Notes under the pieces: generated by a model
The model's database searches: none
Told to the model about the DNA's origin: nothing
The model's input: only the letters and a program-made list of their open reading frames with translations
Part shown: positions 26,449-58,060 of the stretch, piece after piece
Layout: every line of letters begins with the position of its first letter
Position numbering within the stretch: position 1 is the stretch's first letter
Position numbers and translations under genes: made by a program
DNA from: Bryoerythrophyllum caledonicum
Lineage: Eukaryota > Streptophyta > Bryopsida > Pottiales > Pottiaceae
NCBI GenBank assembly: GCA_963971425.1
Contig: OZ020521.1
Span: forward strand, 6,713,519 to 6,777,518
Length of the DNA: 64,000 nucleotides
Direction of reading: 5' to 3'

Positions 26449-28068
26449 ATGACAGGGAATTCCAGGAGGACTAGCTACAGCAACGAAGACATGGAGGGCG
26501 TGGAAGAAAGTCCCATTAGAGCACCACAGAAGGGCACAGCAGAAGCCAGCAGCCACAAGAAGAGCAAAATCTCGCTCACAAATAAAGGTAAGCCACTCCA
26601 AGAACCAGAATTTGCGAAGTTTAAATTTTGGTTAGGTTTTCAAGACATGGAGACATTAGCGGTGGAAGACGGTGCCGAAGAATTGTATAGCGGCGAATCC
26701 ATAGAGGACATGGTCACACGGGGTATGAAGGCGGATGAGGCTATAGAGGTATGCAACGCAAGGGTGGCCTTCCCCCGAATCCCACAACTACTCTACCCTA
26801 TGGCAACAAGCGATGGAACGGGCCAACATTTCAACATCACCCAGGTTCCCTTTGACATAGAAACTTGTGAGAATTCTGGCCTCTCCCTTGACTTTCACAT
26901 TGCCATCTTCTTTGAAACACCTAAAAACCCACTCATGCATGATGTAGTAAAAAAAATGGTTGAAGAGAGACTTAAGAAAATGGACATTGCACTAGGAGTG
27001 GACCTCATTGATCCAATCGCCATACAATGCTTAAGTATTAAGAATGGGAAAACCAAAGGGGTTTGGGCCGGAAACATTAAGTTGCATCTCCTTAAACCAA
27101 AGATTGATGGACTAATGCTACTCAAGGGCCTTAGGCCCTTTATTCTAACCATCGATGATGAATGTGTAGTTGGGAAAGTGTGCAAGTCTTACCATGGTAT
27201 TGCCAAAGGATCTAACCTTTCCGTGAAGATCAAGTGTGACACTTTGATAGGAGTATCCGCTCAAGTACTCTTTAAGGAGATACTTGACAATAGCTTCCAC
27301 CGCGGCCACAAGTTTGAGATTTCGGGCGTCCAAAAAGGGAAGGGTGATTCACACGCCTTTGTTATTGCTACCACTCCTCAACAAATGAAGAAGATACTAG
27401 CACATCACATCACCATGCGAAGTGAAGTCTTGCAAGCAAGACAAGTCCTTGACACCAAAGGACCAAAAGGTATTTTCGAAACTAAGTCTAGAAAGGATGC
27501 TCTAACACTCACCTTATCTCCTCTTCCTATCCGCTTAGACCTTGCAAACACTACCCATGCTATATACAAAGTCATGGGAGGTACTAATGTTCGATCTATT
27601 TGGTTCCACCGGGACAATGGCACTCACCACAATGGTAGTGCCAATGTCCTTTGTGCTAACCCCATAGTATATAGGACTTTTGTAAAGAAGACTCACGAAA
27701 TTGGAGGAAGCTTTGTGGACTTCGCACCACATAGAAGGAGCCTAGAGGGGGTGGAACCTCCTACCGCCGAACAAGTAAAAGAGTTCGGGTTTGAAGACAT
27801 CAACACCGCAATTGTCAACACCATCACCACATTCAACATGCAAGAGAAGAATGAGGCCATCACCAAGAAGGACATAGTGGAGTTATTGGAGGAGAACAAC
27901 AAGAAACTAAGGCAAGAGAACAAGGAGTACACCGACAAACTACATGACGAATTGAAGACACAAATGGAGTGCATCCAAGAATCAATGCTAGCCACCCTCC
28001 AAAGTATGCAAGCATTCACGGGAAGAGTCAACAATGCAAGAATTGAAGAAAACCGGCCAAACATGTGA
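26449..28068 (+). CDS. LINE A ORF1 (539 aa, intact)
   Basis: I chose ATG 26449 (MTGNSRRTSYSNEDMEG) because it aligns with the ORF1 starts of B, C and D; the frame stays open further upstream. Landmarks in order are SSHKKSKIS, FKFWLGFQDMETL (about residue 60), SIEDMVTRG, FPRIPQLLYPM, QHFNITQVPFDI, DFHIAIFFE, DLIDPIAIQC, KGVWAGNIKLHLLKP, LLKGLRPFIL, VGKVCKSYH, ALTLTLSPLP, IWFHRDNG and FAPHRRSLEGVEPP. The C-terminus (about 470-530) is a charged heptad-like helix (VELLEENNKKLRQENKEYTDKL) likely to be a coiled coil. No zinc knuckle or RRM is obvious. By position it is the LINE RNA-binding protein, and the coiled coil suggests multimers; this is inference. The stop TGA overlaps the ORF2 frame. Confidence 0.85.
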   Translation: MTGNSRRTSYSNEDMEGVEESPIRAPQKGTAEASSHKKSKISLTNKGKPLQEPEFAKFKFWLGFQDMETLAVEDGAEELYSGESIEDMVTRGMKADEAIEVCNARVAFPRIPQLLYPMATSDGTGQHFNITQVPFDIETCENSGLSLDFHIAIFFETPKNPLMHDVVKKMVEERLKKMDIALGVDLIDPIAIQCLSIKNGKTKGVWAGNIKLHLLKPKIDGLMLLKGLRPFILTIDDECVVGKVCKSYHGIAKGSNLSVKIKCDTLIGVSAQVLFKEILDNSFHRGHKFEISGVQKGKGDSHAFVIATTPQQMKKILAHHITMRSEVLQARQVLDTKGPKGIFETKSRKDALTLTLSPLPIRLDLANTTHAIYKVMGGTNVRSIWFHRDNGTHHNGSANVLCANPIVYRTFVKKTHEIGGSFVDFAPHRRSLEGVEPPTAEQVKEFGFEDINTAIVNTITTFNMQEKNEAITKKDIVELLEENNKKLRQENKEYTDKLHDELKTQMECIQESMLATLQSMQAFTGRVNNARIEENRPNM

Positions 28069-28469
28069 GCTCCAAGGACCACATAGCAAAAAATATCCAT
28101 TCCATAGTTTACTACAAAATACGATACGGAGTAGAGTATTTATATAGAAATATAGTCATATACATAATAGTATACAAGTATATAAATACAAAATTAGTAC
28201 ACCGGACAAAAAACCATACACAATACATACACCTTACTAGAACATATAGAATGCACCGTATATGGAACTATACAAAATACAAATATTGTATTCAATGCTA
28301 TATTCAATACAAATACTATACCGAACACCTCAAAGACTATACTCAATACTATACCAAAAATCATTGTACACTACATAAAATAAAACACACCTTTAACAAA
28401 AGAATACATCGTAAATTTTACACAAAACTTGAATTATTACTATACTATACGGCATTTAGTACAAAACAT

Positions 28470-28900
28470 AACACAAATACTAGTACAAATACTGGTACAT
28501 ACGCTGCCACGTATACTAGTACATCTATTGGTTTAAATACTAATACAAACGCTAATACATATACTGATACGTATACTGGCACATACGTTGGCACATATAC
28601 TAGTACGTATACTGGTACGTATACTGGTACGTATACCGATACGTATATCGATACGTATACTTATACTTATACTTATATATATATGTATACTGATATGTAT
28701 ACTTGTACATATACTTATATGTATACTAATATGTACATAGACAAGCATACTGAAACGAATACTCATACCAATACTAATACAAACATAAATTTTTTTAAAA
28801 TCGATACAAACACTAATACGAACACTAATACAAATACCGATACAAATAATATCACAAATATTGATTCGAATATAGATACAAATACCAAAACAAATTCTAA
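28470..28900. repeat. Degenerate hexanucleotide array in ORF2 of A
   Basis: Period about 6 (ACTNGTACGTAT and AATACNAATAC types), encoding Thr/Tyr then Thr/Asn alternations. Similar arrays occur in B (37370-37580, 38400-38560, 39430-39640) and A (46100-46230). Antisense open frames here are shadows. Confidence 0.8.
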
Positions 28901-29285
28901 AGCACATACAAAACCAAATAAAACTGCACATACACACACATATACAAAGATAACCATACACCATCAGAGAAATACACACATATACACACACACATACAAT
29001 CAAATAAACAAAAAATTAAATACCAAGACTGCATACAAAAACAAAAAATTCCGAAACAAAACAAAAAAAACCACCTACTACAAAATACTAATATTAATTA
29101 GAGGGGACAAAAACAAATATACTCAAAATCATAAATCAAGCAACAAACTCCAAAATCACAAAATAAAAGAAAGGACAAACACAAAATGTAAGAAAAATCT
29201 TAAACCTAGTAAAGAAGCAAAAAATACAAAGAGAAATAAAAAATTTAGAGCTTACATGAAATACATACGGAAAACAAAGATTAGA

Positions 29286-29297
29286 AATGATTCAAAA
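29286..29297 (+). repeat. Target-site duplication of B, left copy
   Basis: AATGATTCAAAA, identical to 45227-45238. Both copies read N-D-S-K in the ORF2 frame of A, so the two halves join in phase. Confidence 0.85.
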
Positions 29298-29549
29298 GAA
29301 GAAGAAGAAGAACACCGGTTCCCGAAGGGAACCGGCGTGAATAAAGTGTTTGTTCGTTCCATTGCTAAGACCATGCCCACCGGACAAGGAATTAGCGAAC
29401 TGGAACTACTTCCCCCTTTCGAGGGTAGACACTATGTAACGAGTAGCCAGAAACCAATCAACAACGACCAACCACGACCAAACTAACTAAACAACAAAAA
29501 GCAAAACCAAACAGGCAGCCAATCAGGAAGAGATAGAGTGGCTAAGTTC
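29298..29549 (-). mobile_element. LINE B 3' UTR
   Basis: About 250 bp, nearly identical to the C 3' UTR (49494-49735). It ends in a stem-loop and TTC repeats (sense strand). There is no AATAAA near the end and no poly(A). Confidence 0.85.
29313..29339 (-). terminator. 3'-terminal stem-loop of LINE B
   Basis: CACCGGTTCCC and GGGAACCGGCGTG pair around a 3-nt loop, with one A/C mismatch near the base. It sits directly before the (TTC)n tail. Such 3' stem-loops act as reverse-transcriptase recognition sites in some LINEs; that role here is inferred. Confidence 0.75.
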
Positions 29550-32500
29550 CTAAGGGGGGTCTTGCCTATCGGGGAGGACTTGGTTGTTTTCGATTTTGCG
29601 TTTATGCAATAAAATAGACATGGCATGTTGAATAGCGATGGTGTTGATATTTTTAAAGGTAGTTTTAATTGTATCAATGGGTATCTTGAAGGTATCTTTG
29701 AGAGTTTTCATAGATGGGATAAAGGTGGTGGCACGAGCGCCGGATGTGATAACAATAAGGGGGTCTACCTTCCAACCGAGGGCAATGATGTCGTCTATGA
29801 GGGGTTGGTATTTATCTATTTTGTTTTGTATTGTTTCCGGGGAGAATCTATCGTTGCAATATGTAAATTCGATGAATTGAATGGTGTAGTCTTGGTTGAT
29901 GTTCTCGGGTGGTGGGTCGTTGTATGGTAAACCTTTGACACAAAGAATGTCCGGTTTGAGCCTAGCGTTGCAATGACATCTTTGGGTCATACATGAGCAT
30001 GGAAGTAGCCATGGGGGGACCGTGTTTTCTTGTGGATTGCTATTAAAAGTGCCGGCGTTCATAAGTATGAAACATCTCGATTTGTTGTAGGAGGTGATTA
30101 GTTTTCGGACTTCCCATACCGCTTTGTTATGTCTTTTAACGATTAGGGAGTGTATGTGGTGGTTTTGGCATTTGAGTAGCACATGAAGCCATGTGTCGGG
30201 GTCCGTGGAGGGGCATATGGGGCATGTTATGGATGGGAATCTTTCTATTCCAAAGAAGAGTTGTTTGCGAGCGTTTCCCATGTACTGACCCGTACGGAAT
30301 TTAATGAGGCACGTTATTTGTGAGTCTGAGATGATGGGGTTTTTCCAAAAGTTTGTAGAGAGTTCATTGTCTATGTCGTTATTGTTAGTCCATTTTTCTA
30401 TGTTAGGAATATTTTCTGAGATTGTATCCAGGTTGTTGTAGAGGTCTTGTTTTTTGAGATATTTGCCCAGAAATCTAATTGGGCCTTTGTCGGGGGTATC
30501 TTCTTTGGAAGGCCAATCTTCTTTTTGAAAGTAGTATGGGGTGGCATGAGCATGTTCGTGAAGGTCTTTGGCGTTTTTGTGTGTTTTTTCTCGGCCTTCT
30601 TTTGCAAGTTTGTCTGCTTGTTCGTTGCCATCAATGTTGGCATGGGCTCTGACTTTGTGAAGGGTTGTGATTTGTGTACGTTTTTGTAACATTTGTACCA
30701 TTGATGTTAGTATGGTTTGGTCGGGGTGACTGTTGTGAAGGGTTGGGTGTGTTATTTGAGTGTTTAGTAGGTAGAGTGCATTTATACAATCGGTGAATAT
30801 ATGTGCAGGTTCATTTTTGTATTTTGTTGTGATGATTTGTAGTGTTTTGTGAATGGCCATGAGTTCTGCTCTGAGGATATTTTGTAGTCCATGGAGTCTT
30901 TTGGCTAGTTTAATTTCTTTGGTAGAATTATATATGCCATAGCCAGCTTTTTCTCTTCGCCAAGAGCCCGGGCTAATTTGTTCCGGTGGTTTAAAGGAGC
31001 CGTCGGTGTAATAACTGTATGCGGGGTTAAATTTTAGTGTGGTATGAGTTGGGTAGTCTGGGAGAGGGGGAGGTATGACGGAGTAGTTTAATATGTTGTT
31101 GTCATAGTTTAATTTTGACCATTTTTTACTTTTGTTTACGGGGGTTTGTATGGGTGTTGGTGGGGCCGGTTTTGTGGATGGTCGTTGTATGTCTAGATTG
31201 TCTGTTATGGAGGTAAGTTCCGCAAGTTGTTCTAGGGAGCCCACGTTTTGATTTTGATGATGGACGCATAGTATTTGTAATGTAGATGGCTCTATTCGGG
31301 GTTTTTTTAGCTCGGGTGGGATATTAGGTTCTTCGTATGGTATTGTGTCTGCTTCGAATAATGCAATGATGTGGGAATCTGGGAATGGGTTTGAATGTTG
31401 GTTGTTGTTTTGGTACCAATTGTTGTTCGGTGTGACGATGATTGTTTTTGTGTTATTTGGATCGTTTTTGGCGGCAAGTCTAGCCCAATGTATGGCTTGT
31501 TCTATGTCTTTCTCGTTGTGGGGGTGAGCTATTCCATTTCCGATCCATTTGTGTTCAAAGGCCTTGCCTAGGGATCCAAATATTTTGTCTCTTTCGTACG
31601 GTGAGTAGAATTTATTTAGTTTGGTAGAACATGTGATCGGGGAGGAAAAGTATGAGTGTTCGATGTTAAAGGATGATATTAGTGAGTCTAAAATGGGGGT
31701 GGGTATTGTGTATTGCGCATTTTTGAGGGGGTCAGTTTTTGGTATTCGATATTTATATCTTTGGTAAAGCCATATTAGTTCGGTTTCAAAGGGTTGGGTT
31801 GTTGGTTCAATGTTTGTAGGGGATTGTAATTTTGTATGATATTGGTTCCATAACCATTGGAGCCGGGTAATGGGTATGGTGTGTAAATGTCTGCCGTTTT
31901 CTTCGTATAGATGTGCTTGATTGTTATCTATTTGAATTGTGTTTGAGGATGTAAGGATATCATTTTCGGGGTTGCATTCTGTTGTGTAGATGTTTAAGAG
32001 TGGGATAATTATGGGTGGCGTTACGGACCTTGAGTCTGAGAATTGTTCTTGTGGATGGTGGGCAAGGATGATATCTGAGTATATTTTGTTTTGGATCTTT
32101 TGGTAGTATTGTTTTAATTTTTCAGTGTTATGTGTGGAGGTATTGGTGTCATGCCGTGGAAAAAGGTCTCTTTGTGGGAGCCATTTATTGTATGTATTAT
32201 CATTGTGTTGCCATTGGCATAGATATTTTGTGTAGGTATTTTGTATGTTATTTGTGTCTATGTGTTGGATATGTTTATGGTTTATGATATTATTAATGGG
32301 GTATGTGGTAGGGTTTTTGGGGATGTATGTTGGGGGGCGGGGGTGGTATGCACGTGGAGGGTTAGGGGGATTGGTTTGTGTGGGAATATTTCTTGGGATG
32401 ATGTTATTGTTGAGGGTGATGAATGGATCTTTAAGTGTATGAGAGTATGGGTGTATGTTGCAAGGAGTATGACAAATAGTGGAGCATGTTATGTGGCAAA

Positions 32501-33455
32501 ATAGTTGTTTAGCAACACTTAGGGCACTCTTTATTAGTTTAGATGGGGTGAAGTGGTAGGTTTTGAAGTCCTCATTGTTCATGATGTGTGTACCGTTAGG
32601 TAAGGTAATTTGGTTTAGTTCAAAAATATTTTTTGAAAGGAGTTTTTGTAGAAGCTTTTGGGAGAATTGGGCATTGAGTGTGTTATGATTTAATGTTTCT
32701 TGGCGCCATAGTATTTCTAGTGTTGTAGGATTAGTGAGGAAGTTCGGGAGCGTACTTTTAAGGTGGGCTTTAGCTATATGTTTTAATAAGAAGAATGTTC
32801 GTGTTATTGGTGATCTTATGCAGTCACTTTTTTTAATTCTCGGTATGTTTTCAGCGCCACCATATTGGGCAAGGACATAGTGAGTTAATCCATTATATAT
32901 TTTCCCAAGTCTTCCTTTATCGTTTAGAGCATTTTGCAGTTGTTCGCCTATACATCGGAGGTATGCGTTTTTGAGGGAGAAAGCTTCAAGTCCAAATAGG
33001 TTATGTGGTAGTTGGGTTATTGCGTTTGACATACATTTTGGTAGTCCACATATGGTTTTTTGTATGGCTATTATTTTTTTATCATGTTTTTTGATAGCTG
33101 GCATAGAGTATGGTACACCGTAGAAGCTATATGCCACACCTGGGCGTAGTACGGTATCAACCATTTTTATTTTTTGTTTCATGGTGGCTGGGCATGTTGT
33201 TAGTTCTTTGCATTGTTTGATGAGCTTTGTGGTTGTAGTGTGGATTTGGATTTTCCATTTTAGTGAGGGAACAAGATTTGTACCTAGGTATATGTATGGT
33301 TCGTTTTGGTGTAGTATAGGGATTGGTTGGTTGCGGTAGTTGATATTAGAGGTTTGCATTAGGGCTTTGAAAGTGGTAGGGTTCAATTTAGATTTGTTTG
33401 GGCATCCGGTAGCGGCACATTTTGGAACTCCCACATCCATGCCAGCCCATTTACA
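29550..33455 (-). pseudogene. LINE B ORF2: RT thumb, RNase H, zinc knuckle, C-terminal domain
   Basis: The frame starts directly after a nonsense codon (TAA 33456-33458, a Tyr codon in A and C) and runs about 1,300 codons to the ORF2 stop. It contains the end of the RT (WAGMDVGVPKCAATGC, then the connection region), RNase H with YYTDGSF, RAELMAIHK, FTDCINAL and NEQADKLA (the D-E-D-D set), the CPIC..TWLHVLLKC knuckle and the C-terminal FIEFTYCNDRFSPETI domain. RNase H is characteristic of only some LINE clades. The region is about 98% identical by eye to C 49736-53300. Confidence 0.85.
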
Positions 33456-33850
33456 TTATCTATCAATTTTGTTTAGTTGTATTTGGATTGATTTGATTTT
33501 GTTAGTTATGGTGGCTAGGTCATCTGCGTATGCGGCCGAGTTTATTGTGACTTGTGATGTGCCGAAAGTATATCCATTATTGCCTCTTTCTAGCCATCTA
33601 AGTAGTGGTTCTAAAAATATAATAAATAGGTATGGGCTGAGGGTGTCCCCTTGTATAGTTCCTCTTTGGATGGGTATAGGTTTTGTTTTCCCAAAGTGTT
33701 CGCCGATATAGCAAGTAGATGATTGGGAATAGATGTTTCCAACAAGTGTAGTTGCCTCTTTTGGGTAGCCAAGGTCTGACATTATTGCTAGAAGTCTGGC
33801 ATGATCAATTGAGCCAAAGGCATTTTTGAAGTCCACGTATAGTATGTATA
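33456..33850 (-). pseudogene. LINE B ORF2: RT palm
   Basis: This segment carries the catalytic core: VDFKNAFGSIDH, RGTIQGDTLSPYLF and AAYADDLA (the YADD box). A 2-bp loss near 33850 (GATATACAT where A has GATATATACAT) shifts the frame from the upstream part, and TAA 33456-33458 ends it. The catalytic residues themselves are present. Confidence 0.85.
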
Positions 33851-36235
33851 TCTTGGTTAGTAAATTTTGCGTCTTCTAATGCGGCTATTATAGTTTGTAT
33901 TTGCCGTGCGGTACTTCTCTCTGCTCTAAATCCTTCTTGACTATCATGTAGGATTTTGAATTTTTCGCCGTATGAGGATAGTATGTGGGTGAGTGTACTG
34001 GTAAAAAGCTTATATATTGTGTTAGCTAGTGCAATTGGTCTATGATTGGGTAGCATGGATGGATCGCCTTTTTTGTATAGTAGAATTGTTGCACTTGTTT
34101 TCCATGAATTTGGTATTTGTTTTTGTTTATAGCAGTGAGAAAAGAATAGGAATAGTAGTTTATGAAATCTTGGAGGCATGTTTTTGAGTATTGAGTTTGG
34201 TATGCGGTCTGGGCCTGGGGCTTTATTATTTCCAAGATTTTGGAGGCATGTGTCGTATGTGGCTCTGTTGAGGTATTTATGTAGTGGAATTTCTGGTTCG
34301 CCCCGTTTGTCAAGGGTATATCCGTCCAGGTCGTGCCAAGGATATTGGCGTATTGCACATGTGCATTCTATTGTATGTTGTGGCTGGTAATTACATGTTG
34401 GTACTGTTGGTCTATTGGTTTTTGTTTGTTGGTTGAATATTTCATTCGCAATGTCTTCGGGGCTAGTTAGAATATTATTATATTGATCTTTGATACAATC
34501 CATTGGTGGGGATTCAAGGTTTTTGAAGACTTTTTTGTTAATTTTTTTGGGGCTGATTTCGTATAGTTGTCTGTATTTTGAGATGGATTTTTTAATGTTT
34601 TCATTTGTGTATTGTGTGATTATTTTCCGAGCTTGTATGTTGGCATTTTTTGCAATTATCGCGATATCTTTTATCCATGTATCATGGGGAAGGTCCGGAG
34701 GCGGCGGGGTAGGGATTTGGATGTGTTGTATATTTAGTAGTTCGTTGTGTATGGGGTGGTTACGCCATTGAGGGTTGTTTTTTACAATTCTAATGGTTTT
34801 ACGTATGGTATGGTATGTGGTTAAGTGTTGTTTCCAAGTTTTAGAAAGTTTGCGGGATAGATACCCGCCTTGTTGAGAGGTTCTGTTCGTCATTTGGGGT
34901 ATTGGGTGTGCTCTACAAGTTTGTTCTAGTGTATCAGAGATTTTATTGATGAGTTTGTCTAGAGAGTGGCATGCTTCTTGCCATTGTGCTTGTGTTAATT
35001 GACTATTGGTTTCAAGAGTGTTTATGAGGGAGTCTATTTGTACGGTGTTTTCTTCGAAGAATTTTGTGTTGAATTTTTCTATGCTGGTTTTTGGGATGGG
35101 GTTGAGTATGCGTATAGTGTCTTTGTTTGGGATTGTAGGAGTTCTACTAATTAGTGTGTTATTTGGGATGTGTAATTGTACGGGTGAGTGGTCCGAATTG
35201 AGAATAGTATCTTTGTTTGTTGTGGAGGTGTATTGTGTGTTGTTGTTTGTATTTATATAGAAACCATCTATTAGACTCCAATCACTATAATTGTAGCCAC
35301 CTTGTCTAGGGAATTGTGTATCGGTATTGATGTAAGTAAAGTTTAAGTTTTCTGTGAAGCGGCGCCATTGGTAATCAATGTTTTGAGGGGGGGTGTGATG
35401 GTTTCCATTTTGGCGGCCAATTAGCGCTATGTCTCTATTGAAGTCTCCACATAATAGGTATGTATGATTGGGATGATTATTAATATGGGTTGTAATAGTG
35501 TTTTGTATATCTAAGAGAAATCTAGTATCTTCGGGATGGGATGGCATATACATGTGAAAGATTAACCACGGTTGTAGTGGGTGATTAGTGATTTTAATTA
35601 TTTGAATGTATGGTGATATGTGCATTGGGGTAGGGATTTTGTTGATGTTGCCGGGGAATGTATATTTTTTGTGTATTAATGTAAGGAGGCCACCGCGGCC
35701 CGGTGTGTATGGTCTCCTTTGTTGCATGCATCTTGTAAGTGCATGTGTATTGTTAAAGATGAGTTTATAGTCTTGAAATATATGTTGTATATATTTTGTA
35801 GATTTTGTGGCGGTTAGTTTTGTTTCTTGTATAACTATAAGAGCCGGTGGTGTGTCTATGTTTGCGGCTAGAGTTTGCAAGCTAGGAAGGGCAGTGTTTA
35901 GTGAGGAGGCATTCCATGTGATTATGTATGTATTTTCTTGATTTGATCTACTGTTTTGATTTTGAGGAGGAATGTAGGGAAGAGGTGGGGGTGGGTGGGT
36001 GTATTCTGGTATAGGGTCTAGACATTTTAGTGATTCACTTATGAGGTTGTTAGGGAGGTAAGGGAATTTTAGTTTTATTATATCATTTGAGGGTGGTATT
36101 TCTTGACTATGTAAGAAGTCGTATAGTCTTTTATGTATTGAGTTCTCATGGTTTATAATATTTTGGTTGTCTACTAGGAATTCATTATAGGGGTGTGGAG
36201 TGTAAATGTGTCGTTCTGGTGGGTTTTGTAAGGTT
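33840..36235 (-). pseudogene. LINE B ORF2: APE-type endonuclease and RT fingers
   Basis: The endonuclease motifs in order are ITWNASSLN, VIQETKL, LLCGDFNRD, SLIDGFYIN and NSDHSPVQLH, the N-E-D-N-D-H pattern of apurinic-type LINE endonucleases that nick the target DNA. A linker follows, then the RT start: NNKAPGPDRIPNSILK, HRPIALANTIYKL, SQEGFRAERSTARQI. The frame is open upstream of the first ATG (35880) to about 36236, where a 1-nt deletion separates it from the 2A-containing segment. Confidence 0.85.
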
Positions 36236-36569
36236 AGTAGGTTTGTAGGAGTGTATTAGTCCATGTAATTGTGTTCCAATTTTGTGGATTTAGAAGTTGG
36301 TTACATTCATCTATATTTGGATGAGTAGTGATTATTAGTGCATATAAGATGTGGGGTGGTGGATGCGTATTTTTTTGTTGTATGTATTGGGCAATGTTTG
36401 GGTGGGAAGTGTTGTGTATGTGGTGTAATGTATGTGTGTTTTTTAGAAATGGTGCGAAGGATTTTGCAATGTGTTCATATTCTGGTTGGAGTTTTATGGT
36501 ATTAGGTATAAAGTAGATTTTGGCATTTTTCTTATGTGATGTAGGATGTCTTTTTAGTATATTGGGCAT

Positions 36570-36599
36570 GGGTCCCGGGTTGGTTTCAATGTCTCCTCC
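36570..36599 (-). other. 2A-like motif GGDIETNPGP (B, canonical)
   Basis: Encodes LLLLLGGDIETNPGP-M, fitting the D-(V/I)-E-x-N-P-G-P consensus. Just upstream of the endonuclease. Confidence 0.85.
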
Positions 36600-37079
36600 T
36601 AGAAGTAATAGAAGTTTGTGGTATATGTGTTTAGTGGTGTATTTTAAAGGCTTTGTTGTGTTATTAATGACTTGTTGGTTTGGGGGTAGGTGGATGTTTG
36701 TATTTTGTGTGTGAGTTGTGGGTTTATTTATTTTTATAGTAGGTGTAGTTGTTTTCGTCTTTAGTTTATTTTTTGTCCATGTGTTTTTTGTGGTTGTTTT
36801 TATTTTAGTAGTGTATGGATGTATGTATGATTGGTTGTATTTTATCTTGGTTGTTTTTGTCCGTGTGCATATGTAACTATTATGTTTAAGACTATTTGTA
36901 TGTGGATTTATGTTGGTTTTTAAAGTGGCTTTTAAGTCCTTTTTTTCATATGCGGTGTTATTATATACTTTGTGGTTTGTACAATTGTTTGTTTTGGTGT
37001 TCGTATTAGTATTTGGTATGAAATATGTTTCGGTATTCTTTTTGTGCGAAGCGGGGTGTCTTTTTAATATGTTCGGCGT

Positions 37080-37109
37080 GGGTCTTGGGTTAGTCTCCAT
37101 GTCTCCTCC
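37080..37109 (-). other. Damaged 2A-like motif GGDMETNPRP (B)
   Basis: Matches the canonical site except Gly to Arg (AGA for GGA) and Ile to Met. Followed by TPNILKRHP, the same downstream block as the canonical site. Confidence 0.8.
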
Positions 37110-37649
37110 AATTAATATTAGTAGTTTGTAGTAGATGGGTTTTTTGTTTTGTTTTAGAAATTTTTGTTTTTGAATGTGACTTTGGTATTTGTGTTTTTTT
37201 GATTGTATGTGTTTGTCTTTGTATGTGTGTATGTATATGTATGCGTTTCGTTGATGGTGTATGGTTGTCTTTGTGTGTGTGTATGTAGTTTTATGTGGTA
37301 TTATATTAGTATTCTTTTTTATGTTTGTATTAGTGTATGTTACGGTTTTTGTCTTGGTATTTGTATCAGTATCATTGTTAGTGTTTGTGTTAGTATTCGT
37401 ATGAGTACACGTACCACTATTTGTATTGATATTTGCATTTGTATAAGTATAAGTATAAGTATTTATACCAGTATGCGTATCAGTATACGTACTAGTATTT
37501 GTATAAGTATATTTATAAGTATACTCATCGATGTATGTATCAGTATAAGTATCAGTATACATATCGGTATATGTACCCGTATATTGAAATAATGAGTTTT
37601 CTAAAAGATTTCTTTCTAAACATATTTTGTCTAAAACTATGATTTCTAA

Positions 37650-38440
37650 AAACAGATTGATATTTATTTCGATCTGATTCGTATATATTCTTACTTTAAT
37701 TAGAATTTCTATTTTTAGTAAATCTATTTTTTGCACCTCCGGCGCCCCCCCGGCCGGCGAGACATGAATCCCACCTCCTATTTTAATACTTCTACATACT
37801 CTCAACACATTTCTACTACTTAATCGCAAACTCTCCTCATCTTTATATATAATAATTTTAATATTACTATTAACTTTCCATTTATCCCTGTAGTTTATAT
37901 TCCAATTTCTATTTTTTGTCTGTACTCTTTTATTATTACTATCTTCTCTATTTATTTTTACTTTGAAATTTTTGTTTCTCATTACAAGTTTGGTTAATTT
38001 TCCATCCGTTATTTTTGAATTTCTTATGAAGCTTAATCTATTTTTAGATCTGTTATTTATAGCTGTATTCTTCCTATTTGTATTCTTATTATTTTTTATT
38101 CCCATTACTAATTTGGTGCATTTTCCATCCCTTATTTTTGAGTTTCTGATTAAGCATAATCTATTTTTAGTACTGTTGTTTATAGCTATAGTCTTCCTAT
38201 TTGTATTCTTATTATATTTGATTCTCATTACTATTTTGGTGTATTTTTCATCTCTTATTTTTGAATTTCTTAGGAAGCATATTCTATTTTTAGTACTGTT
38301 GTTTATAGCTATATCCGTCCTATTTGTTTTCTTATTATTTCTTATTCCACTTACTAATTTGGTGAATTTTCCATCCCTTATTCTTGAATTTCTTAGGGTG
38401 CATATTCTTGTCTCGGTGTTTGTATCAATATCTTTGTTAG
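37650..38440 (-). repeat. About 126-bp tandem coding repeats in ORF2 of B
   Basis: Four diverged units encode KNRxCFLRNSKIRDGKxTKLVMxI followed by NKxTNRKxxAINN. They are followed (toward 37650) by a conserved block, NWNINYRDKWKVNSN, YKDEESLRLSSRN and QKIDLLKIEIL. A related block occurs at 38590-39030 in B and at 45590-46080 in A, so the module predates the split. Confidence 0.7.
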
Positions 38441-40034
38441 TATTCGTGTTATAATTCGTACTAGTATACGTACTAGTATTCATATTGGTATTTGTATTAG
38501 TGTAAGTATCAGTATTTGTATTAGTATATGCAACAGTATACATATATGTATATGTACAGGTATATGGATATTTATACAGATGCGTACAAGTGTACATAAA
38601 ATATATACTCATATGTATTTTAATCAGATTCGTATATATTTTTTCTTTTATTATAATTTCTATTTTTAGTAATTCTATTTTTGGCGCCTGCTGCACCCTC
38701 CCGGCGACCCAAACAGATATTCTCGCTTCAATTTTTTTACTCCTACGGAGTCTTAACAAATTTCTACTCTTTAATCCCAAACTCTTCTCATCTTTATATA
38801 TATCAAGTTTACTTTTACTATTTACTTTTCCTTTAACCTTATAATTTGTATTCCAAATTCTATTTTTAGTATGTATTGTTTTGTTTTTAGTATCTTTTCT
38901 GCTTATTTTTAATCTACGAGTTCTGTTTCTCATTACTAATTTGTATAATTTTGCATCCTTTACTTTTGCATTTATTAGGAAGCATATTCTATTTTTAGTA
39001 TTGTTGTTTGTTGCTATGATCTTTTTATTTGTATTCTTTTGATAATGGTTTTCTACCTTACCCTTTATTTCCTTCTTACATATCCTCTCCGATTTTGTTC
39101 TTTTATTTTTTATATTACTTGCTCTATTTGAAACCTTTGAAATTTTATAAATATCTATCATCTTCCTATTTAATTTATAATATCTCTTTATACTCTCTTT
39201 GATTTTGCTATTGTCCCCTCCAATTAATATAAGTACTTTGTAGTAGGTGGGTTTTTTGTTTTGTTTCGAGGTTTTTTGTTTTAGTATGTGGTATTTAATT
39301 TTTTGTTTATTTGTTTGTATGTATTTGCCTTTGTATGTGTGTGTGTATATGTGAGTATATATGTGTGTATTTCTTTGATGGTGTATGGTTATCTTTGTAT
39401 ATGTGTGTGTATGTGCAGTTTTATTTGGTTTTGTATGTGCTTTAGAATTTGTTTTGGTATTTGTAAATATATTCGTATCAATATTTGTGATATTGGATTT
39501 ATCAATGTTTGTACTAGTGTTCGTATTAGTATTTGTATTGGTTTTTTTATTCGTGTTTGTATTAGTATTTGAATCAGTACATGTACTAGTATATGTGGCT
39601 GTGTATGTACCAATATTTGTACTAGTATTTGTGTTATATTTTGTACTAAATGCCGTATAGTATAGTAATAATTCAAGTTTTGTGTATAATTTACGATGTA
39701 TTCTTTTGTTGAAGGTGTGTATTATTTTATGTAGATTACAATAATTTTTTGTATAGTATTGAGTGTAGTCTTTGATGTATTTGGTATAGTATTTGTATTG
39801 AATATAGTATTGCATCCAATATTTGTATTTTTTATAGTTCCATATAGGGTGTATTCTATATATTCTAGTAAGGTTATTGTATTCATTGTAAAGTACGTGG
39901 GAGGTATTTACGATGGGATCGTATGTTTTTGTAAGATGTTGGTATTTTGGTTGAAATTTTATGGTGCTTGGAATAAAGTACATTTGTTCTCTTTTTTTGT
40001 GTGCTGAGGAATGATTGTGTAGTATATTTGGTAT

Positions 40035-40061
40035 AGGTCCTGGAATTTGTTCGATGTCTCC
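40035..40061 (-). other. Variant 2A-like motif CGDIEQIPGP (B)
   Basis: Asn is replaced by Ile within the otherwise conserved core. It is preceded by a five-Leu run and followed by PNIL and YFIPSTIKFQP. Confidence 0.75.
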
Positions 40062-40885
40062 ACATAAAAGTAGGAGAAGGATTTTATCAATATTTTCCTT
40101 TGGGGGTTTTTTAATAGTTCTTTCTTTTTGATGTCGGAGTAATATTTTATTCATAAGTAAGCTATGCTTTTGTAAGTGTGTTAGTGTTAGAAGTATTTTA
40201 GCGAGTTTTTGTGGATATTCTTTAAGAGTTGAATTTTTGTGTGTGTTTTTTAGAGGTGTTTTTATGTATGTGTTTTTGTAGATGTGTGTGTTTTTTGTTT
40301 TTTCTTGTGTGTGTGGGGAGTTATGTATTCTGTTTGTCTGTGTGTGTATTAGATTTTGTTGTGTTTGGTGTGTGGATGTTTGTGTGTGCACAACGTGAGT
40401 AGTGTTGTGTGCTGTTGTGTGTTTTGTGTTGTTGGGAGGTTTGTTGGTATCTTTTTTGGTTATAATGTTGTTGGTAGTGGGTAGTTTTTGAGTGTGAATG
40501 TTGTTATATGTGTTGAAGGATGGTTCTTGTTTGGAGTATGTATTTTTGATGTATGAGATCTTCGTACTTGTACTTGTACATACGTCAGTTTTTTGTGTTT
40601 TGTATTTGTATTGAGTAGAGTGTCTAATACAATTGTATACCATGTATATATTGGTATTTCTATGTACGTACATAGTGTACGTGGTACGGTAGTAAATTTT
40701 TCTATACTGTATTCTATGGTGGAGGTGGGGGTAGATGTAGAGTGTAGTGGAGGTATAGTAGAGTAGAGATATTAGTGGTGGTATGTTTGGCGAGGTAGTG
40801 TAGTAGTCTATACTATATTGTATTCTATAGTAGAGTAGGGATATGAGGGAAGATCTACGTTGTAGTGCCTTGAGATCTTTGGGGT

Positions 40886-42535
40886 CTACGGGTTTGGCTG
40901 TGGGTTCTCTAGTCTTGGTTTCTTCATGCGACTATTGACGTCCTTCAACGATGAGAGAACAAGGGTCAAGTTGTCCTCAAGGTTTAGTAGTTTTTCTGCC
41001 AATTCTTCGTGTCTCTGATCAACATAGTCTCTAGTTTCTTGATGTAGCTTTTTGTTGCTCACTTCCACCGCTTTCTCCACAATGTCTACAATGTCTGCCT
41101 TGGAGAGGTTGTTGGAGGGTCCTTCTTGCAATTTGAAGGTTTCCACCGTATTAATAATGGCGGTGTTGATATCCCCGAAGCCAAAAGACTTGATCAATTC
41201 TTCGGATGGAGGTTCCACTCCATTCAGGCTTCGACGGTGTGGAGCGTATTCCACATAGTTCCCTCCCATCATAAGAGTTTTGCCCACAAATTGTTTATAA
41301 ACAATAGGGTTGGTGCAATGCACATTTACACTCCCATTGTGACGGTTGTTAACTTCTTTGTGAAACCAAATGGTGTTCACATTAGTAACTCCCATAATCT
41401 TATGAATCTCACCGCTAACATCCATGGTACTCATGCGTAGGGGGAGTGGGGATAGAGTCAATGTCAATGCGTCTTTTCTTGCCTTAGCCTCTAGTGTATT
41501 GCTCCCAGCGGGTTTGGTGTGCTTGACTTGTATGATCTCTTGTTGTGTAGTGACTTGGTGGAGTTGAATCTTGGTTGCCTGTTGAGGTGTGGTGGCAATA
41601 ATAAATGCATGCGTGTCTTCAATATACTTGTGCACCCCTGTAACCTCAAATTCTTGTCCTCGTTTGAAGCTGTTAAGTAAAATGTCCTTGAAAAGGGCAT
41701 GAGCCGAGGTCCCCTTCAATGTGTCACTTTTTATTTTCACCGATAAATTAGTGTTACGTGAGATGTTGTGGTATGTCTTGCATACCTTGCCAATAACGTC
41801 ATGCCCATCAATGTTGAGGATAAAATATCTTAGGCCTTTGAGTAGCATAATTCCATCCATCTCGGGCTTGAGTAGGTGGAGCTTAATGATGCCAGCCCAT
41901 ACGCCTTTTTTGCCCCCTTGCTTAAGACTTAGACAATGGATAGCTATTGGGTCTATCAAGTCGGTCCCAAGTGGTATGCCCATTTTCTCCAATCTTTTGG
42001 TTGCCATGTCTTTCACTTCACCATGCATGAGTGGGGATGAGGGGAGTTCAAAATTGATAGCAACGTGGAAGTCATGTGACATACCTGTATCATTGTTGAT
42101 GGTGATGTCAAATGGGAGTTGAGTAATATTATAGTGTTGCCCCACTATTCCCCTCCTAGACATTGGATAGAGCTCCTGTGGCACATATGGGAAAGACATC
42201 CTTGCTTTGCTAGCCTCTTCCGCTTCATCCACCTTAAAGCCTCTTGAGATCAAGTCTTCCACCAATTCCCCGCTATAACGCTCCATATTGCCTTCTTCCA
42301 TGGCAAGGGCTTCCATAGCTTGGAACCCTAGCCAAAACTTGAAGTTAGAGAGAATAGGAGTTGTGAAAGAAGACATACCTTCTTCTTCGGGAGAGCATCT
42401 CATCTTCTTATTACTGTTGATATCTTCTCCATGGTTTTTGTCCATAATCTCCTTGTAAGTCATCTCCTTCTCCAACGGTGCTTCTATATCCATAATATCG
42501 CCAAGCTCCAAGTTCCTCCTAGCGCTCCCAGCCAT
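40886..42535 (-). CDS. LINE B ORF1 (549 aa, intact)
   Basis: The start MAGSARRNLELGDIMD at 42535 follows an AG acceptor-like site by a few bases. It has the same landmarks as ORF1 of A: SNFKFWLGFQAMEALA, FPYVPQELYPM, GQHYNITQLPFDI, DFHVAINFE, DLIDPIAIHC, KGVWAGIIKLHLLKP, IGKVCKTYH, ALTLTLSPLPLRM, IWFHKEVNNRHNGS, YAPHRRSLNGVEPP and a C-terminal charged coiled-coil-like tail (VSNKKLHQETRDYVDQRHEEL). Identity with C ORF1 is only about 60% by eye, although the 3' parts of the two elements are almost identical. The end reads CCA AAC CCG TAG, and the ORF2 frame runs across it at -1. Role inferred as an RNA-binding LINE protein. Confidence 0.85.
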   Translation of the reverse strand: MAGSARRNLELGDIMDIEAPLEKEMTYKEIMDKNHGEDINSNKKMRCSPEEEGMSSFTTPILSNFKFWLGFQAMEALAMEEGNMERYSGELVEDLISRGFKVDEAEEASKARMSFPYVPQELYPMSRRGIVGQHYNITQLPFDITINNDTGMSHDFHVAINFELPSSPLMHGEVKDMATKRLEKMGIPLGTDLIDPIAIHCLSLKQGGKKGVWAGIIKLHLLKPEMDGIMLLKGLRYFILNIDGHDVIGKVCKTYHNISRNTNLSVKIKSDTLKGTSAHALFKDILLNSFKRGQEFEVTGVHKYIEDTHAFIIATTPQQATKIQLHQVTTQQEIIQVKHTKPAGSNTLEAKARKDALTLTLSPLPLRMSTMDVSGEIHKIMGVTNVNTIWFHKEVNNRHNGSVNVHCTNPIVYKQFVGKTLMMGGNYVEYAPHRRSLNGVEPPSEELIKSFGFGDINTAIINTVETFKLQEGPSNNLSKADIVDIVEKAVEVSNKKLHQETRDYVDQRHEELAEKLLNLEDNLTLVLSSLKDVNSRMKKPRLENPQPNP

Positions 42536-42542
42536 GGTTGTA

Positions 42543-42574
42543 CTGAAACAAGAGAGTTGGTTAGAGGGACTTAC
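42543..42574 (-). other. Possible 32-nt intron before ORF1 of B
   Basis: AAGAG|GTAAGTCCC, CTAAC, then a pyrimidine tract and TTGTTTCAG|T. Every splice element is present, but the length is far below usual plant introns. Confidence 0.35.
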
Positions 42575-42649
42575 CTCTTGGTCTTCTTGTCGTAAGTGGC
42601 GCTTGGCTGCTCCTCGAGGCCTGCCTTTGGTTGATGTAACTTGGGGTTC

Positions 42650-42676
42650 CTGTAGATACAGAGAGATGGGGCTTAC
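42650..42676 (-). other. Possible 27-nt intron in the leader of B
   Basis: ACATAG|GTAAGCCCC, then TCTCTCTGTATCTACAG|G. Donor and acceptor fit the consensus, with no clear branch point. Confidence 0.3.
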
Positions 42677-44213
42677 CTATGTATTCGTTGGAGTTGGGGA
42701 AGCAAGGTTTCTTTTCTCTACTCTCTCCTCCTGTCTTATGCTTGGTTGTGTTCTGTTCCTTGAGCGTGTTGTCTCTCTTGTTGAAGTCACTTGAGGTTGT
42801 TTCTTGCTACGTTTTGAGTTGATTTTTTCTGCATCACCCCACACTTTGCTTTTGCCCAATATCACCCAGTCCATATCATTTTTGTCGAGGAGAAAGCTTA
42901 CCTTGAATGCGCAAAAAAGACGCTGTTGAAGAAGTGGAGGGCGCTTTGTTTCGGCACCGACTAGTTTCGCCTTGTTAATGGAAGTTGGAGGGTCGCTGGA
43001 GGGAGTTGGGAGGTTGCTACTGTAGGTTCTGGGGGCTCTAATGGGAAGTGGTGGGTCGCTATGGGGTAGAGGTAGGTCGCTGTGGAGTATTGGAGTGTCG
43101 CTGGAATGGGTGGGGAGGTCGCAGTGGGGTATGTGAGGGTCGCTAGAGGGGGTAGGAAGGTCGCAAACGGGGGTTCCTGGGTCGCTGTCTAGAACTCCAT
43201 AGGTCGCAAGTGCAGTTAAGAAGGTCGCAGGGAGGGTTTTCTCAGTCGCTGCGGCGGGGAGTAATTTTGTCTGCGGGGCGTCTTCTCTTCTGTTCCAGCC
43301 TGTGATGTGGGAGGCTGGCTTTAGGGCGGGACAGGGAGGGTTTAGTATGAGTGAGAGGGGGTTTATTGAGTGAGGGGAGGGAGTATGAAAAGGGAAGAGG
43401 GACAAAGTCAAGTGGGAAGTGGGGGAGAGTGAGAGTGACAGGGTCGGGGGAGGACTATAGAGGAGGGAGAAAGACAGCGTAGGAGAGAGGGAGAGGGTCG
43501 AAGTCGTAGGAGAGAGGGAGAGAGTCGAAGTCCGACAGGGATTCGGAGAGAGGAAGAGAGTCAAAGTCTGGGAGGGGTTCGGAGGGAGTGGGATGGACAG
43601 AGTCGGGGAGAGCAAGAGGGTCAGAATGTGTGAGGGGTTTGGGGAGAGGCAGAGGGGCAGATTCGGGAATGCGCTGCAGTTGTGGATTCGTGAGGGTTCA
43701 GAGGCTCGTGAGGGTTCAGAGGTTTTGTGTGTTTCTATAGGGACTCGGTTGAGAATGATTCGTGTCGGGGTGATGAGATCAGAGGTTTGCGAGGGGTGGG
43801 AAATAGGGGCTGTGGGGGAGGCGAGGGGGACTGTTGGTATTAAGAGGATGCTGTTGCAGATCAGGGAGATGGTTGGGGTAAGATTAATGCGGGTCGGGAT
43901 GCTAAGATCGGGGGTTTGCGAAATGAGGGAAGGGAGGGCTGTGGGAGAAATTAGGAGGATTACTGGGATTGGGAAGGTGTTGCTGTGGTGCAGGAAGGAG
44001 GCTGGGGTGGGATTGATGTGAGTCGAGGTGGTGAGATCGGAGGTTTGTGGGGGAAGAGAAGAGAGGGCTGTGGAGTAAGAGAGGAGGATTACCGGGTTTG
44101 GGGGGGTGTTGCTGTGGTACAGGGAGGAGGGAGACGAGAAGTGGTTGTAGAAGGGGGGGGAGATGCTGCAGGTTGTGGGGGAGAGGGGGCACCTGTTGCG
44201 GGGGGGGAGGGGG

Positions 44214-44260
44214 CTATGGAGGGGATTACGAAAAGACGAGGGTTTAGCGATAGTACTCAC
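44214..44260 (-). other. Possible 47-nt intron in the leader of B
   Basis: CTCAG|GTGAGT, GCTAAAC, then TCCATAG. Consensus-like but unsupported by transcripts. Confidence 0.25.
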
Positions 44261-44496
44261 CTGAGTTAATCTTGTTCTTGTTTGTCCACGTTCGTGTTGA
44301 CCTTGCCAATGTACTACGATTGCGTGTCTGCTGTTCTTTGGTCGCAAATCTCCTTCAAGTTGCTTGCCTTTGATGTTGATGCTTTGTGCTGTTGTGCTTG
44401 TGCTGCAGGTTGCTTGTGGGTGCGCGTGGAGTAGCTCCGATTTGGTGTTGTAGGGTTGCAGATTCTTCGTAGTTAGATCTAGATCTAAGAAAAAAA

Positions 44497-44510
44497 TCCA
44501 GCGCTTCCGC
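44497..44510 (-). promoter_or_regulatory. Conserved leader motif GCGGAAGCGCTGGA (B)
   Basis: Exact 14-nt match to D and F. Confidence 0.5.
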
Positions 44511-45226
44511 GTGCAGTTTTGAGGTAGATCTTCGAGACTTGTTATGATGAACTCCACTTCAGAGGTTGTTCTGTAGTGCTGAACTTCTGATCTGATATAC
44601 AGCTCTCTCAAGCAAGTGATGTCAGAATTGTTGTGTAAAGTGTATATGTGCTTAGCAAAACATGGTGACAGTGTGTGTTTAACAGTGGTGAAGCAAGGAA
44701 AGGACAGAAAAGTGTAAGGGAGGTAAGAGGTAGCCTGATGTGGAGCGATGTTGATGCCTTGCGGCGACGGTGGGGCGGTCTTGTCGTCAATCTTGTTTGC
44801 TTGTGCACCTGGGTCGGGGAGGAGGAGGGAGTATGTGGAAGATAGCAGATTCCGTTAACCTATTCTCCGATCTGGGATTGAGTGACCTTGCGGGTAAGAC
44901 TGAAACGACCAGATCTGTGCTCCAACACGGGTGTCCCTAGCTTCAGATTCCTCACCGCAAGATCTTGCCACCAACTCTCCACCCTCAATCCACTAGCCCC
45001 AGATCTAAAGTTTTTTGAGCCTTGTCAACACACATATTCTGCGTTCCACACCTAACCACATGCCAACCACTAAGACTCACGCAGGCTCAATCAACAGGGC
45101 CAGCCACCTCCTGCTGTGCGTGATCTAGGGTTTGCAACTAAGTCCCTCTCCTCTCCCCTCACCAGGAAATGCGGAGCTCTACTCAGTGTTCATCGTGTCG
45201 CCAAAAATGGATACCACAAAGTGGCC

Positions 45227-45238
45227 AATGATTCAAAA
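45227..45238 (+). repeat. Target-site duplication of B, right copy
   Basis: AATGATTCAAAA, the partner of 29286-29297. A sequence resumes here. Confidence 0.85.
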
Positions 45239-46239
45239 CAAATAACATATAACAAAAAAGGAAACAATAATAACAAAAATAATAATGGAAATATTGAAAT
45301 AAAGATAAAGAAGGGTAGAAGAGAATGTAAACCCAAGAATGTAAATCAGAAGAGAAGGAAAGTAAAAATGGCTAAAAAAAGGAAAATCACGGAGAGTAAA
45401 AAAATATATTATAAATTAAATAGGAAGAAGATAGATATTTATAAAATATCAAAGGTCTCAAATAGAGCAAGTAATATTAAAAATAAAAAAGAAAAATCGG
45501 GGAGGATATATAAGAAGAAAATAACGGGTAAGATAGAAAACCATTATCATAAGAAAACATATAATAAGAACATAGCAACAAACAATAGTACTAAAAATAG
45601 AAAATACTTCCTAAGGAATTCAAAAATAAGGGATGGAAAATCCACCAAATTAGTTATGGGAATTAATTATATTAAGAATACAAATATTAAGAACATAGTT
45701 AGAAAATTCAGTACTAAAAATAGAATATGCTTTCTAAGAAATGCAAAAATAAGGGATGGAAAATTAATTAAACATGTAATGAGAAACAAAAATTTCGGAA
45801 TAAAAATAAATAGAGATGGTAGTAATAATAAAATAGTACTGACAAAAAATAGAAATTGGAATATAAATTATAGGGATGAAAGGAAAGTGAATAGTAACAT
45901 TAAAATTGATATATATAAAGATGAGAGTAGAAATTTGTTGAGAGTATGTAGAATAATAAAAGTAGAAGCGAAAATTTTTGTCCCGCAGGCCGGGGGGGCG
46001 CCAAAGGAGCCAAAAATAGAATTACTAAAAATAGAAATTCTAACGAAAGTAAAAATATATACGAATCTTATTGAAATAAATATCAATATATTTTTTCTGT
46101 ATACTGTAACGTATCTGTATAAATATCTGTATACTTGTACGTATACAGATACGTATACGGTTACGTATACTAATACAAATACTGATACTTACACTAATAC
46201 CAATATGAATAATAGTACGTATACTAGTATGAATCCCAA

Positions 46240-46960
46240 TACATACATACACACATACAGAAACAAATACATACAATCAATAAAACACCAAAGTCACATA
46301 CAAAAACAAAATAACTTTAAGCAAAACAAAAAACCCACCTATCACAAAACACTAATATTAAATATGAATACCAATATAAAACCAAATACAATTACATACG
46401 CACACCCGTATACAAAAACAACCACACAACATCAAAAAAATACATACACACACAATTACAAAGAGAAATACATTCAATCAAATAAACAAAAAATAGAATA
46501 CCAAAGCCATGTAATTCTAAAACAAAACAAAAAATCCATCTACTACAAAACACTAGTACTAAATATGAAAACCAATATAAAACCACACACAACCACATAT
46601 TCACACCCATATACAAAGACAACCACACAACATCAAAAAAACACATACATATACACATACAAAGAAGAATACAATATACAAAAAATAAAATACCAAAGCC
46701 ACATACAAGAACAAAAAATCTTAAAACAAAACAAAAAATCCACCTACTACAAAACACTAAATATGAATACCAATATAAAACCTACATATACACACCCATA
46801 TACAAAGACAATCACACAACATCAAAAAAACACATACATACACACATACAAAGACAAAGACACACAATCAAATAAACAAAAAATAAAATACCAAAACCAC
46901 ATACATAACCAAAAAATTCCAAAACAAAACAAAAAACACATCTATTATAAAATTCTAACA
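46240..46960 (+). repeat. Tandem repeat with decayed 2A cores (about 4 units)
   Basis: Units of roughly 170-200 bp with shared CACCCATATACAAAGACAAC, CACAACATCAAAAAAA and AAACAAAACAAAAAA blocks. Each ends in sequence aligning to LLILIGGDxETNPGP but reading LxLNMxTNIKP. Confidence 0.75.
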
Positions 46961-46981
46961 CTAATCCCCCCAAACAAATAA

Positions 46982-49493: not shown

Positions 49494-49735
49494 GAAGAAG
49501 AACGCCGGTTCCCGAAGGGAACCGGCGTGAATAAAGTGTCTGTTCGTTCCATTGCTAAGACCATGCCCACCGGACAAGGAATTAGCAAACTGGAACTACT
49601 TCCCCCTTTCGAGGGTAGACACTATGTAACGAGTAGCCAGAAACCAACCAACAACGACCAACCACGATCAAACTAAACAACAAAAAGCAAAACCAAACAG
49701 GCAGCCAATCAGGGAGAGACAGAGTGGCGAAGTTC
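49494..49735 (-). mobile_element. LINE C 3' UTR
   Basis: About 240 bp, nearly identical to the 3' UTR of B, ending in a stem-loop and TTC repeats in the sense strand. Confidence 0.85.
49502..49528 (-). terminator. 3'-terminal stem-loop of LINE C (12-bp perfect stem)
   Basis: ACGCCGGTTCCC and GGGAACCGGCGT pair perfectly around a 3-nt loop; B has one A in place of G. It lies directly before the (TTC)n tail, so it is the likely reverse-transcriptase start structure. Confidence 0.8.
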
Positions 49736-56758: not shown

Positions 56759-56788
56759 AGGTCCTGGGTTGGTTTCTATGTCTCCTCC
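56759..56788 (-). other. 2A-like motif GGDIETNPGP (C, canonical)
   Basis: Encodes ILGGDIETNPGP-M next to the endonuclease. Fits the consensus. Confidence 0.85.
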
Positions 56789-58030: not shown

Positions 58031-58060
58031 GGGTCCTAGGTTGTTTTCTATGTCTTTGCT
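58031..58060 (-). other. Decayed 2A-like motif SKDIENNLGP (C)
   Basis: GG to SK before the core, T to N, and Pro to Leu (NLGP for NPGP). The context otherwise matches the canonical sites. Confidence 0.75.

Follow-up and report, generated by a model that had tools for sequence, protein, structure and literature searches.

To our knowledge, the known 2A-bearing retrotransposons of the APE type, such as L1Tc and the sea urchin elements, carry a single site of this ribosome-skipping peptide. Passages of PMC11512398 and PMC4981915 cite 2A in long interspersed nuclear elements (LINEs), and multiple 2A (NPGP) sites are described for picornaviruses in the former. Here, we analyzed a 64,000-nt stretch of contig OZ020521.1 of the moss Bryoerythrophyllum caledonicum, referred to as the window, which contains copies A, B, and C of a LINE in which a 2A module is reiterated upstream of the endonuclease. 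We consider it fairly probable that these elements have a disposable leader insulated by 2A (StopGo), where the leader is entered in the -1 frame after the first open reading frame (ORF1), the last 2A frees the enzymes encoded by ORF2, leader-2A cassettes are stacked, and upstream sites decay.

A single stop-to-stop frame of copy B on the minus strand (36234-40931, 1565 amino acids) carries all four motifs that the original prediction had named, in the order CGDIEQIPGP (octamer at 40035-40058), GGDNSKIK, GGDMETNPRP (37080-37103), and GGDIETNPGP (36570-36593), and a PNIL...YFIPxT block lies behind three of them. The layout of the module is a hydrophobic run, the 2A core, and PNIL...YFIPxT. Using a profile seeded mostly with modules of other proteins chosen by NPGP, together with the last modules of B, C, and another genomic copy (L013), the modules of copy B were located as follows.

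39882..40118, minus strand, module 1, core DIEQIPGP, decayed (profile match, E 4e-27).
39210..39464, minus strand, truncated module ending GGDN(SKIK) (profile match, model positions 1-79 of 91).
37008..37166, minus strand, penultimate module, core DMETNPRP, decayed (profile match, E 5e-15).
36393..36653, minus strand, last module, core DIETNPGP (36570-36593), the sole intact one in B (profile match, E 2e-35).

The GGDNSKIK module consists of the front part alone (KPTYYKVLILIGGD), followed by unrelated sequence, so the predicted row of four 2A sites was revised to three modules and one truncated module. The predicted reiteration of the 2A and PNIL unit was borne out by three full profile matches, and so was the retention of the consensus in B at the endonuclease-adjacent site alone. 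The consensus (D/G/C/N)(V/I)ExNPGP fits the last module, DIETNPGP, of B, A, and C, and does not fit the upstream modules of B (IPGP and NPRP); the upstream context is a hydrophobic run and then GGD. A chance origin was rejected, as shuffles of the frame gave [DGCN][VI]xxNPGP in 0/5000 and four or more [GC]GD in 0/5000. According to passages of PMC12846837, the 2A core hardly ever departs from N-P-G-P at positions 16-19, the rare active variants being H at 16 and M or W at 19. Considering that NPRP and IPGP alter near-invariant positions, only the endonuclease-proximal DIETNPGP module of B is predicted to be an active 2A.

The same arrangement was found at other places in the genome. A 35-nt pattern for both module contexts gave 411 exact matches, with none for the reversed control, and the penultimate context with AGN replacing the Gly codon gave 162; among 100 listed of these 162, one had AGT and the others AGA, which corresponds to NPRP. 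The first 100 of the 411 places included 37 of the AGN penultimate type, 32 of which had an NPGP module 494-517 nt downstream. The spacing between penultimate and last module was exactly 510 nt (170 codons) in 28 of the 32, and three of the other four spacings were not multiples of three. In a protein search of the genome, the best 150 of 3684 candidates were scored. The eight best-hit loci (L001-L008, where L001 is B and L008 is the same place as L009) were not picked by frame length, and the penultimate module was in frame with the last in all of them. Their penultimate cores were NPRP in five and NPRS, NPRL, and NPKP in one each; the last core was DIETNPGP in 8/8, with a query that included the last module and was thus biased against variation there. 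Twenty 10-kb loci selected for long open frames (L009-L028) all had at least two modules, the last core being DIETNPGP in 19 and the penultimate NPRP in 19. Since at least two modules were present in 8/8 best-hit and 20/20 long-frame loci, the possibility that copy B is an isolated rearrangement, which had been raised with the original prediction, was rejected. Exactly one intact D(V/I)ExNPGP core was found in each of the 20 long loci, B, and C, and neither the window copies nor the 20 long loci presented a serial-2A polyprotein with at least two intact NPGP cores in one frame. Judging from these sequences, the module row in the host genome appears to be mostly one live site behind decayed ones.

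Copies A and C of the window show other stages of the stack, and their relevant parts are given below.

25078..29297, plus strand, copy A, ORF1 and the first part of the leader, within which copy B is inserted (-1 junction at 28065).
45227..49534, plus strand, copy A continued, with decayed modules, a stop, and an intact module.
57234..58120, minus strand, copy C, upstream module with the dead core DIENNLGP (module match 57857-58120), pre-endonuclease region, and endonuclease start.
56582..56845, minus strand, copy C, endonuclease-proximal module, core DIETNPGP (56759-56782; profile match).

Copy A has four decayed modules (46163-46969) with MNTNIKP-like cores, then a stop at 46979 and an intact DIETNPGP (47099-47122). 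In copy C, the dead 2A, a sequence reaching into the endonuclease, a second leader, and the intact 2A all share one frame. The stretch 58054-57234 of copy C is 74% identical over 828 nt to positions 0 to +826 past the last 2A of L019 and L013, and the offset of this joined-in segment is 1272 nt, or 424 codons.

Three protein searches of a database that mixes genomes and metagenomes provided 112 related proteins. In 57 of these relatives, the match to the module profile includes the core, and the endonuclease-proximal core is NPGP in 53/57 (46/49 in another count), including DIQPNPGP in five; as the seed modules were picked by NPGP, strongly decayed cores may be missed. The upstream part is 150 residues or longer in 34 relatives, 4 of which have two or more modules, all NPGP. 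P0033, P0045, and P0099 have two modules each, 159, 140, and 44 amino acids apart, respectively, and P0105 has three (DIQTNPGP, DIHTNPGP, and DIHPNPGP), 85 and 128 amino acids apart; these four relatives, each resting on one contig, have at least two intact NPGP cores in one frame. In P0098, a decayed DIQTNLGP lies 44 amino acids ahead of a live module. The five upstream modules of P0033, P0045, P0099, and P0105 scored 23-54 bits higher with a second-family profile made from nine endonuclease-proximal modules (e.g., P0080 and P0069) than with the profile of their own last-module type, made from 39 modules. Based on these scores, the stacks of the four relatives seem to have arisen by 5' capture from another LINE family, and the differences in sequence among the modules argue against assembly duplication. 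The upstream modules of B and C score higher with the main (own-type) profile than with the second-family profile. Tandem duplication, as originally predicted, is therefore one part of the origin, the other being indicated by the relatives' upstream modules and by the 2A and endonuclease start joined into copy C. No relative in a viral contig was confirmed among 59 pattern matches.

In the mechanism that we propose, ribosomes finishing ORF1 would enter the -1 frame at GYCAAAC beside the ORF1 stop, for which we prefer a frameshift over reinitiation at a non-AUG codon, and would read through the long low-complexity leader to the endonuclease-proximal 2A. As its conserved motif suggests, this 2A would end the leader chain and start a free endonuclease-reverse transcriptase-RNase H protein. 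Frame-keeping 5' joins between elements and internal duplications would each add a leader-2A cassette, with template switching or recombination as the presumed source of the joins. Both kinds of event would be tolerated because everything upstream of the last 2A is shed, and the older sites upstream would mostly degenerate, by changes from G to R, N to I, and P to L, since the last site alone is required. For the host, this would mean a stack made up largely of fossils with a single live site, and the two or three intact sites of some relatives may release extra peptides. Speculatively, the long leader may also lower the dosage of ORF2. We suggest more tentatively that two recoding steps act in series, -1 at GYCAAAC and then StopGo, that StopGo renders the 5' half freely exchangeable between LINE families, so that leader-2A cassettes accumulate, and that the two or three serial 2As of some members fire and give off additional peptides.

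The open frame of the leader points to its translation. The leader of B has no in-frame stop, against 104 and 146 in the other two frames and 114 expected from a first-order Markov estimate, which was used throughout. Across 15 copies, the leader frames have 0 stops in 776-1446 codons, where 43-114 would be expected and the two other frames contain 41-131 and 57-148; this count covers 15 of the 23 long copies, L016, L022, L024-L028, and A being excluded. The ratio of nonsynonymous to synonymous change (dN/dS), estimated from nine subfamily representatives with pooled, non-independent pairs, was lowest for ORF2 (0.25), followed by the penultimate module (0.30) and the inter-module part (0.37). 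The leader is of low complexity with 123-nt repeat units and turns over fast between subfamilies. From about -1.8 kb of the leader, or the start of the leader alignment, to +2.8 kb of ORF2, the copies compared are about 90-97% identical (83% for copy C, from -23 only), while the ORF1s are strongly diverged. We infer from the frame being kept open that the leader is translated.

At the junction, 17 copies have a recognisable ORF1; 13 of their leaders open ahead of the ORF1 stop, 12 of the 13 in the -1 frame. To compare the junctions, one copy was used for each of ten ORF1 lineages, which are 32-73% identical pairwise (44/45 pairs aligned). In 10/10 lineages, the -1 frame is free of stops for 600 nt past the end of ORF1, in contrast with 4-20 stops in the other two frames; farther downstream, it is interrupted in L021 and L026. 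Five lineages have their closest -1 stop on the 5' side only 16-22 nt ahead of the ORF1 stop, which leaves 13-19 nt for entry. GYCAAAC is present 0-1 codon before the ORF1 stop in 10/10 lineages, and the -1 translation starts with (A/V)K(H/L/P), the next residue being V in 8/10. Coupling through a stop-start AUG at the ORF1 end was rejected, as no AUG is shared.

Several observations weigh against the shed-leader mechanism. The leader of L010 opens in the other frame, though its sisters L013 and L014 are -1, and the leaders of L009, L016, L021, and L026 open 281-1486 nt past the ORF1 stop. GYCAAAC is not a canonical slippery heptamer (X_XXY_YYZ), as only the A-site half fits, and the downstream folding is unremarkable, with z from -2.8 to +0.8 and below -2 in 1/10. 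The copies used for counting leader stops were drawn from long-frame loci, so the lack of stops is partly selected for. The dN/dS is 0.52 in the last-2A stretch, where changes are few, and 0.65 in the earlier leader, where alignments are uncertain. As for the sites themselves, there is in L017-L019 a third NPGP site of variant form, ELEINPGP, and L022 is reversed, with an intact upstream DIEINPGP and a last core DIETNLGP that is one base from NPGP.

With GYCAAAC and this folding, the junction is not a -1 programmed frameshift cassette of slippery heptamer and downstream structure, and its frames are arranged as at a -1 entry site. Considering that there is no canonical slip site and no strong structure, both a -1 frameshift and non-AUG reinitiation stand. 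Coupled termination-reinitiation at a non-AUG codon by the ORF1 stop would be a variant of the shed-leader reading, with overlapping odds, and we regard it as a possible route, less favored than the frameshift. The position of the shared motif at the stop would suit it, and passages of PMC5972666 describe reinitiation coupled to a stop for SART1 and mention it as a proposal for LINE-1. Against it, 3/10 lineages have no -1-frame AUG within 300 nt, and the codon overlapping the stop varies.

The original prediction had proposed a chain of 2A sites that would release several short proteins ahead of the enzymes and possibly tune dosage; a working chain might also make accessory peptides. We find this rather unlikely, since two intact D(V/I)ExNPGP cores occur together in none of the copies B, C, and the 20 long loci; the upstream cores there are NPRP, IPGP, and NLGP, or MNTNIKP-like in copy A, and only 4 of the 34 relatives mentioned above have two or more modules. 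As such, the release of several short proteins is unsupported for B and most copies. The relatives P0105, with three NPGP modules, and P0033, P0045, and P0099, with two, do favor a chain, as do the use of DIQPNPGP as the endonuclease-proximal core of five relatives and the H at position 14, as in DIHPNPGP, which a passage of PMC12846837 gives as a tested active variant. L022 also speaks for a chain by its intact upstream site and nearly intact last core, and a second copy of its DIEINPGP module exists. A pattern for penultimate modules with NPGP had 0 matches in the genome and is too narrow, missing L022; a pattern for the L022 form had two, L022 and one other exact copy, L031 (C6:2865200-2868700). 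L022 lost its proline through a C-to-T change at a CpG, which fits a late mutation, so the source element of L022 may have had two intact 2A sites. In L031, the sequence leading up to the DIEINPGP module matches the L022 leader at 92-97% identity, the usual inter-module part after the module is lacking, and about 1.5 kb alignable to the L022 ORF2 start at 72% is followed by a DIETNPGP module in another frame. Today's penultimate module was possibly the endonuclease-proximal site of an older subfamily; alternatively, a newer, 5'-truncated copy may have inserted into an older one at L031.

It is very unlikely that the leader is an untranslated bulky spacer or promoter-like repeat region, with ORF2 made by internal initiation near the last 2A. 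The low complexity, the 123-nt repeats, the fast subfamily turnover, and the different frames of ORF1 and leader would agree with such a spacer, but the stop-free frames described above, in contrast with about 43-114 stops by chance, and the preference for synonymous changes in the inter-module part would not, and a 2A right behind a start site would release nothing. Least probable of all is that the hydrophobic run and 2A form a dual signal sequence like the sea urchin NLR 2A peptides: a hydrophobic run does precede the core in each module, and SpNLR 2A functions both as a signal and as 2A in a passage of PMC4981915, but the modules are internal and not N-terminal, with hundreds of residues separating them in B from the start of the open frame.

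The remaining parts of copy B, in the order of its own strand, are the following.

29298..45226, minus strand, full-length LINE copy B, 15,929 bp, flanked by the 12-bp target duplication AATGATTCAAAA.
40886..42676, minus strand, ORF1, 596 amino acids, with homologues in 15/20 fetched 10-kb loci.
40892..40898, minus strand, GCCAAAC at the end of ORF1, candidate site of -1 recoding (GYCAAAC in the ten lineages).
36594..40931, minus strand, leader upstream of the last 2A core, 1446 codons, stop-free by in-frame stop count.
33805..36255, minus strand, endonuclease part of ORF2 (PF03372/PF14529), in a frame different from that of the leader, B being broken.
29550..33455, minus strand, C-terminal part of ORF2 (PF12237, PCIF1_WW; PF00075, RNase H).

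The two copies of AATGATTCAAAA are located at 29286-29297 and 45227-45238, and copy B lies within the leader of copy A. As it is 99.66% identical over 10 kb to L009 (C2:24.6 Mb), copy B is young. It is nevertheless broken: a single stop codon at 42677 interrupts the ORF1 frame, which extends upstream beyond it (42677-44854), and ORF2 shifts frame near 36234-36255 and has a second interruption between 33455 and 33805. The APE endonuclease and RNase H matches in the window and the 12-bp duplication place the element among APE-type LINEs; reverse transcriptase (PF00078) was present only among the precomputed domains of relatives, a PDB search gave three weak exonuclease III matches, and ORF1 of B had no Pfam match. 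Ahead of RNase H in ORF2, PF12237 (PCIF1_WW), which we take to be the profile of a cap m6Am methyltransferase family, was matched with E of about 1e-10 at 29550-33455 and 49736-52534, both on the minus strand. In the literature search, no paper that treats PCIF1 and non-LTR retrotransposons together was found. Copies B and C end with a hairpin, CGCCGGTTCCCTTCGGGAACCGGYG on the element strand (29313-29337 and 49503-49527), which is perfect in C and has one G-U in B, and it is followed by TTC repeats, not poly(A). Short antisense pieces in the leaders of L013 and L020 resemble, by eye, this hairpin and TTC tail.

Leader composition differs among copies. In L023, with L024 and L025 near-identical, a poly-Q and then a PQ-rich tract of roughly 330 residues leaves the frame unbroken. 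The first ~450 residues of the L012 leader are an in-frame proline-rich stretch that by eye is like the N-terminal part of ORF1, with no recognised ORF1 end. The leaders of the relatives P0043, P0100, P0101, and P0102 have a reiterated block, SAYRPRHK...ALPNLFTTTKF, the upstream copy of which has no 2A behind it. Apart from the LINE, the 437-Mb assembly (G000) contains two different COX1 genes (C282; C267/C893), one of which has four in-frame TGA, while the other, which lacks TGA, is split into several pieces and adjoins a frame resembling reverse transcriptase; a symbiont or contaminant is possible.

These elements amount to a natural experiment on what 2A is needed for, in that the 5' half could change or grow without harm to the enzymes, and the shared -1 junction makes LINE ORF2 translation directly testable in this group. 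The original prediction knew of no LINE with serial 2A, and our literature search likewise found no paper describing one, which is weak evidence of novelty as the main LINE-2A papers were outside that search. With the APE-type non-LTR retrotransposons L1Tc and the sea urchin elements (Heras 2006 and Odon 2013, as cited in other papers), the present LINE shares a 2A core in frame with an endonuclease-reverse transcriptase protein, whereas here the 2A comes behind a leader of up to about 1450 codons after a separate ORF1, and the module is reiterated. Picornaviruses, in passages of PMC11512398, likewise have several NPGP sites per frame in numbers that vary between close relatives, with tracts of about 50-150 amino acids between sites compared with 44-159 in the LINE relatives; in contrast, ours is a retrotransposon and not a virus, and in the host of the window, decay has affected most sites except one. 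The elements SART1 and LINE-1, in passages of PMC5972666, share the making of ORF2 downstream of the ORF1 stop on one RNA, unlike which our junction has no overlapping stop-start AUG but a shared GYCAAAC, a -1 frame, and in many cases hundreds of bases without an AUG. Two recoding types per RNA are shared with the cardioviruses, where StopGo lies beside a -1 frameshift site in the relevant passages of PMC5009743, whereas the order here is reversed, the sites are kilobases apart, and the frameshift is only a candidate. Taken all together, 2A in LINEs is already known, and in the present elements it is reiterated, probably by 5' joins, with stages of decay side by side and intact double or triple sites in relatives.

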